The notes below the pieces were generated by a model. The model ran no database searches. It was not told where the DNA came from and saw only the letters and a list, made by a program, of their open reading frames with translations. Positions 36,965 through 42,961 of a DNA stretch of 64,000 nucleotides are shown here, piece after piece. Source of the DNA: Candidatus Bipolaricaulota bacterium (GTDB lineage Bacteria > Bipolaricaulota > Bipolaricaulia > Bipolaricaulales > Bipolaricaulaceae); assembly GCA_025060415.1 (NCBI GenBank), contig JANXBT010000001.1, positions 192,313-256,312 of the forward strand, given 5' to 3'. The position numbers and the translations under genes are program-made. Within the stretch, counting starts at the first letter, position 1. Each line of letters opens with the position of its first letter.

Positions 36965-38065
36965 ATGAGCGAATTTCAAAGGCGGCGCGCGGACCTGTGG
37001 CGCAAGGTGCGGGGCCAGGGCGTGGAGGCCTTCCTCGTGGTGAACGTGGAGGGCTCGGATCAGCCGAACCTCCGGTACCTCACGGGCTTCACCGGGACGT
37101 TTGGCGTGCTCATCCTCGCCGCGGAGGAGGCCCTCTTCCTCACGGACCCGCGCTACACGGAGCAGGCCCAGTCCCAGGTGGATCTGCCTGTCGGGGAGGT
37201 GCGCGGCCGTTGGATCCCCCAGGTGGTGGAGCGGCTGCGGGCCCTGGGCCTCCGGCGCGTGGGGATCGGGAGCGCCCGCACCACCCTCCACCTGTTTGAG
37301 GAGCTGAAGAAAGCGGGGGAGGGCCTGGAGTTCGTGCCCCTGGGGGCGCCGGTGGAGGAGCTCCGGCGCGTCAAGACGGAGGACGAGATCCGAAAGATCC
37401 GGGAGGCCGTGGCGCTCACGGAGGCCGGGCTTTCCTGGATCCTGAAGCGGCTTCGGCCGGGGATGAGCGAGCGGGAGGTGGCGCTGGAGCTGGAGTTTTG
37501 GTACCGCCGGGAGGGCGCGGACGACGTGGCCTTCGACCTGATCATCGCAAGCGGGCCGCGCAGCGCCCGCCCGCACCACCGCGCCGGCCCCGAGCGCCTG
37601 CGGGCCGGCGAGCTCGTGCTCCTCGACGTCGGGGTGCGCGTGGACGGCTACTGCGCGGACCTTACCCGGGTGGTCTCCCTGGGGAGGCCCGATGCCAAGG
37701 CGGTGCGGGCCTATGAGCTCGTCTTGGCGGCCAACCGCGCGGGGATCGCCGCCGTCCGCGCCGGCGCCTCCGGCAGGGAGGTGGACGCCGCAGCGCGCCG
37801 GGTGCTTGAGGAGGCGGGCCTGGGCGAGCTCTTCGGGCACGGCCTCGGCCACGGCATCGGCCTGGAGGTCCACGAGGGCCCCCGCCTCTCCACGGCCTCC
37901 GAGGACGTGTTGGCCCCGGGCATGGTCGTCACCGTGGAGCCCGGCGTGTACTTCCCCGGGGAATTCGGGGTGCGCATCGAGGACCTCGTGGTGGTCGAGG
38001 AGAACGGGGCCAGGGTCCTGTCCGCCTTCCCCAAGGAGGAGCTGGTGGTCCTGCCTGGGAGGTGA
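36965..38065 (+). CDS. Xaa-Pro aminopeptidase/dipeptidase (M24 family)
   Basis: 366 residues. Creatinase-type N-domain (NLRYLTGFTGTFGVLILA) then pita-bread catalytic domain with metal ligands in VLLDVGVRVDGYCADLTRV (two Asp), GHGLGHGIGLEVHEGP (His) and VVTVEPGVYFP (Glu), and a final Glu in GVRIEDLVVV. It removes residues next to proline in the cytoplasm. The start at 36965 follows the promoter. It is followed after 2 bases by bpsA. Confidence 0.94.
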   Translation: MSEFQRRRADLWRKVRGQGVEAFLVVNVEGSDQPNLRYLTGFTGTFGVLILAAEEALFLTDPRYTEQAQSQVDLPVGEVRGRWIPQVVERLRALGLRRVGIGSARTTLHLFEELKKAGEGLEFVPLGAPVEELRRVKTEDEIRKIREAVALTEAGLSWILKRLRPGMSEREVALELEFWYRREGADDVAFDLIIASGPRSARPHHRAGPERLRAGELVLLDVGVRVDGYCADLTRVVSLGRPDAKAVRAYELVLAANRAGIAAVRAGASGREVDAAARRVLEEAGLGELFGHGLGHGIGLEVHEGPRLSTASEDVLAPGMVVTVEPGVYFPGEFGVRIEDLVVVEENGARVLSAFPKEELVVLPGR

Positions 38066-38067
38066 GG

Positions 38068-39123
38068 ATGGAGCTAGAGGCCATCGCCAAGAGGATCGTG
38101 GACAAGCAAGGGATCCCTGTGACCGCGCGGGATGTGGCGCGGGCGTTCGCCGCCGTGCTGGCCTCAGAGGACATCTGGCGCATCGTGGATTTGGCGAGCC
38201 TTCCGGTTCTGGCCACGTGCGAGGCGCTGTGGGCCTTTGGGGAGCGGGGTTGGGTGCGGTTTGCGGGCGGGCGCGTTCTGGCCACGCCGGAGGGCCAGGA
38301 GGCCGCGCGGGCCCTGGGGATCCGGCCGGCCCAAGAGCTGCCCTGCCCCCGCTGCCGCGGCCGGGGGCTCGAGCTCGAGCCCTTCCGCGACCTCCTGCGC
38401 GACTTCCAGAGGATCGCGCGGAACCGGCCCGAAGCCGCCCAGGAATTCGACCAGGGCTACGTCACGGAGGAGACCACGGTGGCCCGCATCGCTCTGGCCC
38501 TGGCGCGCGGGGATTTGGCGGGGAAGGAGATCCTGGTCTTGGGCGACGACGATCTTGTGTCCCTGGCCGCGGCCCTCACGCGCCTGCCCAAGCGCGTGGC
38601 CGCGTTGGATGTGGACCCGCGCATCGTGGACTTCCTGCGCCAGGCCGCGCGGGAGGAGAAGCTCGCGCTCGAGGTCGTTCAGCACGATCTGCGCGAGCCC
38701 CTGCCCCCGGAGCTCCTGCGGCGCTTCGACACGTTCTTCTGCGACCCCACGGAGAGCCTCCGCGGCTACCTGGCGTTCGCTCAGCGGGGGATCTCCGCCC
38801 TGCGGGGCGCGGGCTGTGCCGGGTACCTGGGCCTCACCCGGCTCGAGGCCTCCCTCGCCAAGTGGCGCCGGATTCAGATGGCCCTGCTGGAGGCGGGCGC
38901 CGTCGTCACCGATCTCTTCCCGAACTTCCACGAGTACGTGAACTGGCCGTACATCGAGACCATGCGCGCTTGGCCCCATCTTCCTGTAAAGCGCGTGCCC
39001 GGGCGCTACGAGCCCTGGTACCGCTCGGCCCTCCTCCGCATCGAGCTCGTGGAGGAGCCGCGGGTGGAGAACGTGCGCTACCGCGGGGATATCTTCACCG
39101 ACGCCGAGGCGGCCACGACTTGA
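38068..39123 (+). CDS. bpsA: N4-bis(aminopropyl)spermidine synthase (branched-chain polyamine synthase)
   Basis: 351 residues. The N-terminal winged-helix part (to about 90) is followed by a CPRC element and an aminopropyltransferase core. GYVTEETTVARIALAL and ILVLGDDDLVSLAAAL carry the GDDD motif characteristic of BpsA (PF01861), distinct from SpeE. It adds two aminopropyl groups to the N4 of spermidine from decarboxylated SAM. Known members come from Thermus and Thermococcales, where branched polyamines support growth at high temperature. GGGAGGTGAGG precedes ATG 38068. Confidence 0.9.
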   Translation: MELEAIAKRIVDKQGIPVTARDVARAFAAVLASEDIWRIVDLASLPVLATCEALWAFGERGWVRFAGGRVLATPEGQEAARALGIRPAQELPCPRCRGRGLELEPFRDLLRDFQRIARNRPEAAQEFDQGYVTEETTVARIALALARGDLAGKEILVLGDDDLVSLAAALTRLPKRVAALDVDPRIVDFLRQAAREEKLALEVVQHDLREPLPPELLRRFDTFFCDPTESLRGYLAFAQRGISALRGAGCAGYLGLTRLEASLAKWRRIQMALLEAGAVVTDLFPNFHEYVNWPYIETMRAWPHLPVKRVPGRYEPWYRSALLRIELVEEPRVENVRYRGDIFTDAEAATT

Positions 39124-39156: not shown

Positions 39157-39759
39157 ATGCCAAGGAAAGCGAAACCTGCTCCGGCGGTGGCGGAGGCTCC
39201 CGCGCTTCTCCCCTGGCCCCTGGTCCCCCGGCGGGTCTTCTTCACCCGCGGCGTGGGACGGCATCGGGATGAGCTGCGCTCCTTCGAGCTCGCCCTGCGG
39301 GACGCGGGGATCGAGAAGCTGAACCTGGTGCACGTCTCCAGCATCCTTCCCCCGGGCTGCAAGATCATCCCCCGCTCCGAGGGCCTCAAGGAGCTCAAGC
39401 CTGGGCAGATCGCGTTCTGCGTGTTTTCCCGCTGCTCCTCCAACGAGCCCCACCGTCTGATCGCCGCCTCCATCGGCTGCGCCATCCCGGCCGATCCCAA
39501 CGCCTACGGGTACCTCTCGGAGTACCACGCCTACGGGGAGAACGAAAAGCAGGCGGGGGACAAGGCCGAGGACCTGGCGGCGTCCATGCTCGCCTCCACC
39601 TTAGGCATCGAGTTCGACGACGAGCTTGTTTGGGACGAGAAGAAGGAGATCTGGAAGATTAGCGGGAAGATCGTGCGCACCATGAACATCACCCAGTCGG
39701 CCATCGTGGACAACAAGGGCTACACCACGGTCATCGCCGCCGCGGTGTTCCTGTTCTAG
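39157..39759 (+). CDS. pdaD: Pyruvoyl-dependent arginine decarboxylase
   Basis: 200 residues. The proenzyme cleaves itself between Ser61 and Ser62 in [15 protein letters not shown] to make a pyruvoyl group. [18 protein letters not shown] and [22 protein letters not shown] are also family-typical. It makes agmatine, the first step to polyamines, and is the archaeal/chlamydial type. An extra 20-residue Ala/Pro-rich lead precedes the domain. The DHS-like gene follows after 9 bases. Confidence 0.95.
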
Positions 39760-39768
39760 GGGGCGACC

Positions 39769-40812
39769 ATGGCCAGAAAAGAGGACTACCTGCGCGAGCC
39801 GGTCCGGCACATCGACCCCAAGAGCTTCAACGCCGTGCCCATCCTGGAGGCCATGGCCTCCATGTCCTACCAAGCGCGGAACCTTGCGCGCGCCGCGCAG
39901 ATCTACGAGCGCATGCTGGGCGACCCCGATTGCACCATCATCCTTTGCCTGGCGGGCTCCCTCATCAACGCCGGGCTCAAGCTGTGCTTTGTGGACCTTT
40001 TGCGTCACAACATGGTGGACGTGGTGGTGGCCACCGGCGCGAACATCGTGGACCAGGACTTCCTGGAGGCCCTGGGGTTCAAGCACTACATCGGCAGCCC
40101 CGAGGTGGACGACAACGAGCTCCGCGCGCTCCGCATCGACCGCATCTACGACACCTTCTTGGACGAGGACGACCTGCGGGTGTGCGACCACACCGTGGCC
40201 GAGATCGCGGACCGGCTCCCGCCGGGCGTGTACTCCTCCCGGGAGTTCGTGCGGGAGATGGGGCGGTACCTGGTGGAGCGGGGGTTGGGCCAGGACTCCC
40301 TTGTGCGTGTGGCCTACGAGAAGGCCATCCCCATCTTCATCCCCGCCTTCTCCGATTGCAGCGCGGGCTTCGGGCTGGTCCTCCACCAGTGGCGGAACCC
40401 CGAGCGCCACGTGGCCATCGACTCCGTGAAGGACTTCCGGGAGCTCACGCGCATCAAGATCGCTGCGAAAGAGACGGGCCTAGTGATGGTGGGCGGGGGC
40501 GTGCCCAAGAACTTCGCCCAGGACGTGACGGTGGCCGCGGACGTCTTGGGCTTCCCCGTGCCCATGCACAAGTACGCGATCCAGATCACCACCGCCGATG
40601 TGCGGGACGGCGGCCTTTCCGGCTCCACCCTCAAGGAGGCCAGCTCCTGGGGGAAGGTGGCCCAGGGCTTTTCCGAGATGGTATGGGCCGAGGCCACCTT
40701 GGTCCTCCCGCTCCTTGTGAGCTACGTGTACCACAAGGGCACGTGGAGGGCGCGGGCCGAGAAGCGGCTTTCGGAGTGGCTGGACGCCCCGGCCCCGCTG
40801 CCCACGCCGTAG
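39769..40812 (+). CDS. Deoxyhypusine-synthase-family protein, probably a polyamine enzyme
   Basis: 347 residues. NAD-dependent DHS fold: LAGSLINAGLKLCFVDLLRHNMVDVVVATGANIVDQDF near the N-terminus, SDCSAGFGL, and the catalytic lysine region EASSWGKVAQ near residue 290. DHS modifies eIF5A in archaea and eukaryotes, and bacteria lack eIF5A. Known bacterial homologues include homospermidine synthases that use spermidine and putrescine. Sitting inside a polyamine cluster, a role in homospermidine or related polyamine synthesis is the best inference. Confidence 0.85.
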   Translation: MARKEDYLREPVRHIDPKSFNAVPILEAMASMSYQARNLARAAQIYERMLGDPDCTIILCLAGSLINAGLKLCFVDLLRHNMVDVVVATGANIVDQDFLEALGFKHYIGSPEVDDNELRALRIDRIYDTFLDEDDLRVCDHTVAEIADRLPPGVYSSREFVREMGRYLVERGLGQDSLVRVAYEKAIPIFIPAFSDCSAGFGLVLHQWRNPERHVAIDSVKDFRELTRIKIAAKETGLVMVGGGVPKNFAQDVTVAADVLGFPVPMHKYAIQITTADVRDGGLSGSTLKEASSWGKVAQGFSEMVWAEATLVLPLLVSYVYHKGTWRARAEKRLSEWLDAPAPLPTP

Positions 40813-40846
40813 GGCCTCCCGGGTAGTCGCCCTCCCCCTCCTCCCG

Positions 40847-40852
40847 TAGAAT
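40847..40852 (+). promoter_or_regulatory. -10 hexamer upstream of the speH leader
   Basis: TAGAAT followed by 6 bases and a GTG triplet at 40859. By the rule of the window, transcription should begin at about 40859, giving a leader of about 95 bases before speH. Confidence 0.4.
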
Positions 40853-40858
40853 TCGCCC

Positions 40859-40922
40859 GTGACCCGAACCCCCTCGGGTGGTCAGACCCGTTTGGGCAAA
40901 AACCCAAATGGGTTCATTTTTT
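40859..40922 (+). promoter_or_regulatory. Terminator/antiterminator-like leader of speH-speE-speB
   Basis: A 12-pair stem (40885-40896 with 40903-40914, including two G-U pairs, loop CAAAAA) is followed by six T (40917-40922), an intrinsic terminator in form but 31 bases before the speH ATG. Upstream, ACCCGA (40862-40867) can pair TCGGGT (40874-40879), while CGGGT (40875-40879) can instead pair ACCCG (40886-40890) and break the terminator. This three-way choice is the layout of a transcription attenuator. The sensed signal (SAM, polyamine, protein or translation) is unknown. Confidence 0.55.
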
Positions 40923-40953
40923 GGCCCATCCGTGCCCGGAAAGGAGGTGAACA

Positions 40954-41301
40954 ATGCGGGAGCTCGGGAGGCACCTGGTGGTGGAGCTGTGGGGTTGCCA
41001 GGCGAACCTCAACCACCCGGAGGAGATCCGGAAGGCCTTGGTGGAGGCGGTGCGCCGGGCCGGTGCCACCCTCATCGATGTCCACGTCCACACCTTCAAC
41101 CCCCATGGGGTGTCCGGCGTGGCCGTCATCGCCGAATCCCACATCTCCTTGCACACCTGGCCGGAGCACGGGTACGTGGCCCTGGACGTGTTCACCTGCG
41201 GGGAGAAGGTGGTTCCGGAGGCGGCCTTCCAGGTCTTCCGGGAGCTCTTCCGCCCCCAGCGCACCCACCTCATCGAGATCAAACGCGGGATTCAGCTATG
41301 A
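40954..41301 (+). CDS. speH: S-adenosylmethionine decarboxylase proenzyme
   Basis: 115 residues, small prokaryotic class. Self-processing occurs at Glu61-Ser62 in VIAESHISLHTWPEHGY, leaving a pyruvoyl on the large chain. It supplies decarboxylated SAM, the aminopropyl donor for SpeE and BpsA. Shine-Dalgarno AAAGGAGGTGA is 5 bases before the ATG. It overlaps speE by 4 bases. Confidence 0.96.
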   Translation: MRELGRHLVVELWGCQANLNHPEEIRKALVEAVRRAGATLIDVHVHTFNPHGVSGVAVIAESHISLHTWPEHGYVALDVFTCGEKVVPEAAFQVFRELFRPQRTHLIEIKRGIQL

Positions 41302-42167
41302 CCGGCGGCCGACGACCGGGAGAGGATTGGCTATGTGAGGAGCAGGCGCCGGGCGTCTGGTTCTGCCTGGGCGTGCGGAGGTGGCTCGTCCGCCGGAGAA
41401 CGCCGTACCAGCGGCTGGACCTGGCGGAGACGGAGGCCCATGGCCGGGTCCTGGCCCTGGACGGGCGGTTTATGCTCTCCGAGCGCGACGAGTTCTTTTA
41501 TCACGAGATGTTGGTGCATCCCGCGCTCCTCGCCCACCCCTTTCCGCGGGAGGTGCTCATCGTGGGCGGCGGCGACGGCGGCGCCCTCCGCGAGGCCCTC
41601 CGCCACCCCGTGGAACGGGTGACCCTGGTGGAGATCGACCCCGCGGTGGTGGAGGTGGCCAAGGAGTGGCTTCCTTCCGTGCACCAGGGCGCATTTTCCG
41701 ATCCGCGGGTCCGCGTGGAGATCGCCCCGGGCGAGCGGTTCCTCCCCGCCCATCCCCGCGCGTTCGACGTCGTCCTCGTGGACTCCACGGACCCCGTCGG
41801 GCCGGGGGCCGCCTTGTTCCAGCACGACTTCTTCCGGGCGTGCCGCGCGGCGCTGCGCCCCGGCGGCGCCCTCGCCCTCCAGGCCGGAAGCCCCTGGCTC
41901 CACCCCGAGGAGCTCCGCACGGTGGTGTGCGCCCTAAGGGACCTCTTCCCCGCGGTGGTCCCCTACCTTGGGTTCGTGCCCCTCTACCCCAGCGGGCTTT
42001 GGGCCTACGTGCTGGCCCTGGAGGCGCTCCCCACGCCCGAGGAGTTGGCCGCGCGGTTCGCCGAGCGGCGGCTGTCCACGCGCTACTTCAGCCCCGCCGT
42101 GTTCCAAGCGGCCACCGTCCTCCCGCCCTTCGTGGCCGCCCTCCTTTCCCCATGCCCCAGCGCCTGA
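41298..42167 (+). CDS. speE: Spermidine synthase family aminopropyltransferase
   Basis: 289 residues. YQRLDLAETEAHGRVLALDGRFMLSERDEFFYHEML and VLIVGGGDGGALREALRH (dcSAM binding), with the catalytic Asp in DVVLVDSTDPVGPG. In Thermus the enzyme uses agmatine and the product is then cut by SpeB; the same order is possible because speB follows. Overlaps speH by 4 and speB by 16 bases. Confidence 0.95.
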   Translation: MTGGRRPGEDWLCEEQAPGVWFCLGVRRWLVRRRTPYQRLDLAETEAHGRVLALDGRFMLSERDEFFYHEMLVHPALLAHPFPREVLIVGGGDGGALREALRHPVERVTLVEIDPAVVEVAKEWLPSVHQGAFSDPRVRVEIAPGERFLPAHPRAFDVVLVDSTDPVGPGAALFQHDFFRACRAALRPGGALALQAGSPWLHPEELRTVVCALRDLFPAVVPYLGFVPLYPSGLWAYVLALEALPTPEELAARFAERRLSTRYFSPAVFQAATVLPPFVAALLSPCPSA

Positions 42168-42961
42168 GCTTCCTCGGCACGAGCCTGCCCTATCCGGAGG
42201 CCCGGGTGGTGATCCTGGGTGTGCCCCTGGAGCGCACCACCAGCTGGCGGGGCGGCCAAGCCCAGGGGCCCAACGCCCTCCGCGCCGCCTCCGACTCCGT
42301 GGAGTTCTTCTCCCACCACTTCCGCAGGGACGTGCGGGACGCCCGGATCGCCGACCTCGGGGACCTCGATCCCTACCGCTCCGTGGAGGAGATCCTGGCG
42401 GAGGAGGAGGCCGAGGTCGAGCGGATCCTGCGGGACGGGAAGATCCCAGTGGTCCTGGGCGGGGAGCACACCGTGGTGATCCCGGCCGTGCGCGCGGCCT
42501 GCAAGTTCGGCCCCCTCCAGGTCCTGGCCTTGGACGCCCACTCCGACCTGCGGGACGAGTACTTGGGCCTTAAGGTCTGCCACGCCACGGCCCTGCGCCG
42601 CGCCCGCGAGCTCGTGGAGAACCTCGTGGTTGTGGGCGCCCGCTCCTTTTTTGGCCCGGACCTGGAGGAACCCTGTTTCGCCGGCCCCAAGGACTTCGCC
42701 CAAAAGCTTCGCCCGGACCTCCCCGTTTGGCTCAGCGTGGACCTCGACTTCCTGGACCCCAGCCTCTGCCCAGGGGTGACGAACCCCGAGCCGGGCGGCC
42801 TCTTTTGGCCCGATTTCCTGGGGATCCTGCGGGAGTTGCGGCGTTTCCGGGTCCTGGGGATGGACCTGGTGGAGCTCGCGCCCATTTGGGACCCCTCGGG
42901 CGTCTCCGCCGTGTGCGCGGCGAAGGCCCTCCTTGAGGCCATCGCCGCCCTCTGGGCTTAA
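42152..42961 (+). CDS. speB: Agmatinase / aminopropylagmatine ureohydrolase
   Basis: 269 residues. Binuclear manganese ureohydrolase: GGEHTVVIPAV, ALDAHSDLRDEY and LSVDLDFLDPS hold all the metal-binding His and Asp residues. It removes urea from agmatine or, in the thermophile route, from N1-aminopropylagmatine to give spermidine. Last gene of speH-speE-speB. Start ATG 42152 lies inside speE. Confidence 0.95.
   Translation: MPQRLSFLGTSLPYPEARVVILGVPLERTTSWRGGQAQGPNALRAASDSVEFFSHHFRRDVRDARIADLGDLDPYRSVEEILAEEEAEVERILRDGKIPVVLGGEHTVVIPAVRAACKFGPLQVLALDAHSDLRDEYLGLKVCHATALRRARELVENLVVVGARSFFGPDLEEPCFAGPKDFAQKLRPDLPVWLSVDLDFLDPSLCPGVTNPEPGGLFWPDFLGILRELRRFRVLGMDLVELAPIWDPSGVSAVCAAKALLEAIAALWA

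Follow-up and report, generated by a model that had tools for sequence, protein, structure and literature searches.

A conserved structured leader RNA, putatively riboswitch-like, upstream of the S-adenosylmethionine decarboxylase operon in Bipolaricaulota

The window, a stretch of 64,000 nucleotides that forms part of a Candidatus Bipolaricaulota (Acetothermia) genome, carries a cluster of genes for polyamine synthesis (Table 1). The cluster is opened by a BpsA-domain protein, which suggests that branched polyamines may be made in this lineage, and continues with a pyruvoyl-dependent arginine decarboxylase and a synthase of the deoxyhypusine synthase family. The latter passes the curated cut-off of the model for 1,9-bis(guanidino)-5-aza-nonane synthase and not that for deoxyhypusine synthase; in the window's genus and in genus g5 a gene of this family separates the arginine decarboxylase gene from speH, and it is absent from that place in the other loci examined. 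The identities of SpeH, SpeE and SpeB, encoded downstream, are confirmed by curated models. In the window's genus, the promoter and leader described here are placed after the synthase gene, while at the loci examined in genera other than this one and g5 the leader follows immediately on the arginine decarboxylase gene and is itself followed by speH. In the window, 142 bases separate the synthase stop codon from the speH start codon (ATG at 40954), and they hold every element of a preliminary description of this DNA, which had seen here an attenuator-like leader switching spermidine synthesis.

Table 1. Genes, promoter elements and RNA segments of the speH locus (window coordinates)
Feature	Coordinates	Strand	Evidence or remark
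BpsA-domain protein	38062-39123		opens the polyamine cluster; branched-chain polyamine synthase A C-terminal domain PF01861, E 1e-90
Pyruvoyl-dependent arginine decarboxylase	39157-39759		curated models
1,9-bis(guanidino)-5-aza-nonane synthase, deoxyhypusine synthase family	39769-40812		curated models
-35-like hexamer TAGTCG	40824-40829	+	17 nt before the -10 element; T-R-G-Y-C pattern
-10 element TAGAAT	40847-40852	+	TA[A/G]AAT at a fixed place in 25/25 leaders
Structured leader RNA	40859-40953	+	model R1 matches 40858-40956; 78.9 bits, E 6.5e-19
P1 5' strand UGACC	40860-40864	+	alternative pairing with GGUCA 40880-40884
5' strand ACCCGA of competing 5' hairpin	40862-40867	+	hairpin -8.6 kcal/mol
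3' strand UCGGGU of 5' hairpin	40874-40879	+	40874-40878 also P4 5' strand; leader comparison
P3 5' strand GGUCA (also P1 3' strand)	40880-40884	+	helix score 2.01 over 25 leaders
P2 5' strand GACCCGUUUGGG	40885-40896	+	12 pairs, 97% canonical over 25 leaders; top-scoring helix; pairs changed on both sides
P2 3' strand CCCAAAUGGGUU	40903-40914	+	partner of 40885-40896, same evidence
T6 run	40917-40922	+	with P2 resembles an intrinsic terminator; window's genus only
P3 3' strand UGGCC	40922-40926	+	best pair tree-aware p 0.004
P4 3' strand CCCGG	40935-40939	+	two bases before the ribosome-binding site; score 1.19, 96% canonical
speH ribosome-binding site AGGAGG	40942-40947	+	invariant in 25 leaders
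speH, S-adenosylmethionine decarboxylase	40954-41301	+	TIGR03330 E 1.1e-43; PF02675
speE, aminopropyltransferase (spermidine synthase)	41298-42167	+	TIGR00417 and NF002010 above cut-off
speB, agmatinase-family ureohydrolase	42152-42961	+	TIGR01230 above cut-off

The leader was compared with its counterparts in relatives, giving a set of 25 leaders, eight from the window's genus and 17 from other genera. The hexamer that the preliminary description had read as a promoter element is present and conserved across all 25, together with a -35-like element in which T and G are kept in 25 of the 25 leaders and C in 23. In the window's genus these three bases are invariant columns in a flank that is otherwise unconserved. 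The conserved promoter thus lies upstream of the hairpin; a promoter downstream of it would have spoken against a regulatory leader. Since these elements lie directly upstream, transcription would be expected to start at about 40858-40859.

A covariance model of the leader, R1, run over 100 genomes of the phylum, yields 25 strong matches (E about 1e-17 to 6e-26), one per genome and each ending at the start of speH. They place the RNA in 11 of the 13 genera of one Bipolaricaulota family. The remaining matches in these genomes reach E 0.003 at best; where inspected, these weak matches, of about 20-24 bits, resembled chance GC hairpins, so that further genomic copies were rejected as a clue to the ligand. 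As speH is the only gene ever associated with the RNA, the neighbouring genes give no pointer to the ligand. At speH loci in other phyla there was no strong match to the model: one search gave E 0.11 at best outside the phylum, and a further one gave no match. Genus g5 has a diverged or different speH leader, which the model matches weakly at the right place in two members (E 0.002 and 0.014), and the speH leader of genus g11 was not recognised. The g5 leaders (L148; L024-L030, L112, L114, L115) lie behind a TACAAT hexamer, with a TTGGAG-like -35 element at about 17 nt in several of them. Two genomes (G025:C30 and G014:C13; L119, L120) each carry a second, more distant speH-like gene, with 45-46% identity and without the leader.

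The structure conserved among the leaders is a nested one, with P2 inside P3 and P3 inside P4, which in the window reaches to two bases before AGGAGG. A helix scan of the 25-leader alignment ranks P2 first (4.50), P3 second (2.01) and P4 fourth (1.19), and, outside P2, only P3 and P4 have at least five pairs. Among 1000 column shuffles, none reached the P3 score and four reached that of P4. The 12-pair P2 stem has a folding energy of -18.6 kcal/mol, with one of 200 shuffles folding as well. P3 is formed by GGUCA/UGGCC in the window and by GGCAC/GUGCC and GGCGC/GCGCC elsewhere; P4 is UCGGG/CCCGG, with CCUGGG/CCCAGG in L010. Under a tree-aware null several P2 pairs are significant at p < 0.001 and one P3 pair at 0.004, while the P4 pairs are not individually significant because P4 hardly varies. 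A global test over all column pairs gave no pair with E below 1, and leaders L021 and L022 have lost the 3' strand of P3.

As the 25-row alignment had been made by hand with the helices in view, an independent MAFFT alignment of 15 more distant leaders was used as a control. There 94.9% of the combined P4, P3 and P2 structure is paired, and 25 cells carry changes on both sides; none of 500 shuffles scored as high, and sliding the structure by one to three columns leaves only 30-66% paired. RNAalifold on the MAFFT alignment recovers P2 and two GC pairs only, since the leaders of the window's genus are out of register towards their 5' end, which is why the hand alignment was needed. The preliminary description had staked its reading on pairing conserved in homologous leaders, and the pairing is indeed conserved, P2 and P3 with covariation. 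Given the model matches, the covarying helices and the conserved promoter, the leader stands above chance. Sequence comparison thus confirms it as a real, conserved and uncatalogued RNA of the speH operon, occurring well beyond the window.

The nested structure competes with a hairpin at the 5' end of the leader. In the window's genus the ACCCGA/UCGGGU hairpin, in which ACCCG/CGGGU is invariant and the loop variable, takes the 5' strand of P4; in the other genera the P1 counterpart GCCAC/GUGGC, 98.7% paired in 15 leaders with one compensatory change, occupies some of the bases of the P3 5' strand. Because the 5' hairpin needs strands of P4 or of P3, the two arrangements are mutually exclusive. 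To this extent the three competing segments of the preliminary description stand, but not the partner it had assigned to CGGG: the best-supported one is CCCGG at 40935-40939, beside the ribosome-binding site, and not ACCCG within the stem. The competing hairpin is conserved but little varied. The two folds are comparable in the window, with predicted energies of -36.9 kcal/mol for the open one (5' hairpin, P3 and P2) and -36.7 kcal/mol for the closed one (P4, P3 and P2). Most of the other genera favour the closed fold, by about 7-12 kcal/mol, and opening would there need help. The base 5' of UCGGG, either U or C, finds its matching A or G on the hairpin side in six of eight leaders and on the P4 side in seven of eight, which is suggestive only, in so few sequences, of a two-fold switching logic.

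We consider it fairly probable that this RNA is a cis-regulatory leader of about 95 nt, extending from its own promoter to the speH ribosome-binding site, with a riboswitch-like and mainly translational action and a putative ligand. A conserved structured RNA between promoter and ribosome-binding site is what a translational riboswitch-like leader calls for, and the leader probably switches between two shapes to set the amount of enzyme. The nested rod of P2, P3 and P4 would lock the stretch next to the ribosome-binding site into a helix, lowering speH translation, and the 5' hairpin would free that stretch. Which fold is adopted might be decided by a small molecule of the pathway, such as S-adenosylmethionine, decarboxylated S-adenosylmethionine, spermidine or a branched or long polyamine, a step less well supported than the others, and the leader would then act as a feedback element. 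When the leaders are shuffled upstream of AGGAGG, the site is predicted to be no more open than in the real sequences (mean rank 0.47). The argument for the proposed occlusion of the ribosome-binding site is therefore the position of P4, and the effect, if real, would come about by steric or kinetic means and not through strong direct pairing of AGGAGG. Thermodynamic sequestration of the site, being not beyond shuffles, was not used as evidence. Of the spermidine-synthesis switch first proposed, a switch-like leader before the operon is retained, and termination as its probable mechanism is not.

No Rfam family matches the leader, even at E 10 (40760-41100), nor did a scan of the window give a leader match, in agreement with the earlier impression of an RNA outside the known families. 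The covariance models of the Rfam riboswitch classes, including SAM-II to SAM-VI, SAH and preQ1, do not match either. The SAM-I model RF00162 has no match in the leader or in the genome, whereas control genomes were positive, which excludes a SAM-I riboswitch or its spermidine-sensing variant. A literature search found no paper linking Bipolaricaulota or speH to a riboswitch. SAM-III (SMK box) riboswitches exert translational control through alternative pairing near the ribosome-binding site, as is proposed here, but in the window's genus the conserved pairing lies upstream of the ribosome-binding site and not with it. SAM-II, SAM-V and preQ1-II riboswitches are short leaders with a hairpin loop able to pair beside the ribosome-binding site. 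The window leader is likewise short and has such a loop, but its nested P3/P4 rod is better supported than a pseudoknot. The spermidine riboswitch (Salvail et al. 2023, PMC10853860) is a variant of SAM-I in which the SAM-I aptamer is retained, and it works through termination in Gram-positive bacteria. It resembles the present leader in its place before polyamine genes (speE, speB, speD and others), in the feedback control proposed and in its mutually exclusive helices; they differ in that the window leader matches no SAM-I model. That this RNA represents a new riboswitch class confined to Bipolaricaulota and unrelated to the SAM-I-derived one, sensing decarboxylated S-adenosylmethionine, S-adenosylmethionine or a polyamine to control translation of the S-adenosylmethionine decarboxylase operon, is a possibility that we put forward only tentatively.

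The preliminary description had instead read the leader as a transcription attenuator, with P2 and the T6 run as a terminator governed by ACCCGA/UCGGGU against CGGGU/ACCCG. The 12-pair stem followed by T6 before the speH ribosome-binding site is present and of textbook shape, and within the window's genus the run is kept as T6 in seven of the eight genomes (T5C in the eighth) despite variation in the P2 loop and flanks. This likeness to intrinsic-terminator attenuators ends at the genus, as no T run is found in any of the 17 leaders of other genera, although P2 is kept there. With T6 confined to one genus and the RNA conserved in all, termination cannot be the mechanism of the whole family. 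By pattern alone, a hairpin with a T run is near chance (two found against 2.0 expected in 3.5 kb), and the two strong stem-plus-T sites in the 64-kb window (0-4 in shuffles) give no sign of routine use of intrinsic terminators there. The proposed antiterminator fares poorly as well: CGGGT (40875-40879) is able to pair with ACCCG (40886-40890), but in the eight leaders of the window's genus, with the ribosome-binding site held open, the 5' hairpin with P2 is the more stable state by 2.8-10.9 kcal/mol, and in other genera the P2 5' strand reads GGCCC, which makes the pairing impossible. Attenuation is thus unlikely as the main mode of control; in the window's genus, the gain of T6 by P2 may add transcription termination as a second layer. 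Far less probable is a translated leader, in which translation of the frame opened by the GTG at 40859-40861 would sense arginine or another amino acid. This frame is open in the window (159 codons), and in 12 leaders of other genera it shares the phase of speH. Its phase is not the same from species to species, however, even inside the window's genus, stops interrupt it in L009, L014, L111 and L113, and the peptide encoded across P2 is entirely different between leaders that all keep the helix. No conserved short leader reading frame with its own start was found among the relatives. The idea of translation as the sensor is therefore largely refuted by sequence comparison. In the 12 leaders just mentioned, all among L010-L022, the GTG stands at the start site with no stops, and would give SpeH an N-terminal extension, poorly conserved across P2, if a leaderless start were used.

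Other ways of operating the same RNA have also to be weighed. In a pseudoknot aptamer, the P1 loop (CCCGGG) would pair with CCCGGG beside the ribosome-binding site, with P2 in between, and the ligand would lock the pseudoknot. Its favour lies in the base pairs of P4, which serve a nested fold containing P3 and a pseudoknot containing P1 equally well, and in the near-complete pairing of P1 in 15 leaders. Most genera other than the window's could also form a further helix enclosing P1 and P2 (ACARGC/GCUUGU), which was dropped, as its covariation is not beyond shuffles (87/500). P3, which excludes P1, covaries better than P1 does, and with no Rfam riboswitch model matching, we regard the pseudoknot as rather unlikely. 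An RNA thermometer, in which heat would melt the rod and expose the ribosome-binding site, would fit a greater need for polyamines when hot, in a cluster whose BpsA-domain protein belongs to a family of thermophile polyamine enzymes. The predicted mean openness of AGGAGG does rise from 0.36 at 37 °C to 0.59 at 75 °C, but gradually, and some rise is expected of any GC-rich leader; the conserved competing 5' hairpin would, moreover, be unnecessary, which leaves a thermometer improbable.

Polyamine riboswitches with convincing evidence comprise so far only one class, the rare SAM-I variant, which controls termination. If the reading of a riboswitch-like, mainly translational leader is true, this RNA would be a second, structurally unrelated leader strictly tied to S-adenosylmethionine decarboxylase, and RNA control of polyamine synthesis would have arisen more than once. 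The gain of T6 in a single genus would be a small natural example of termination being added to another mode of control. Compact and with both ends defined, the leader lends itself to direct tests with synthetic RNA although these bacteria are uncultured, and gene regulation in their phylum has hardly been studied.
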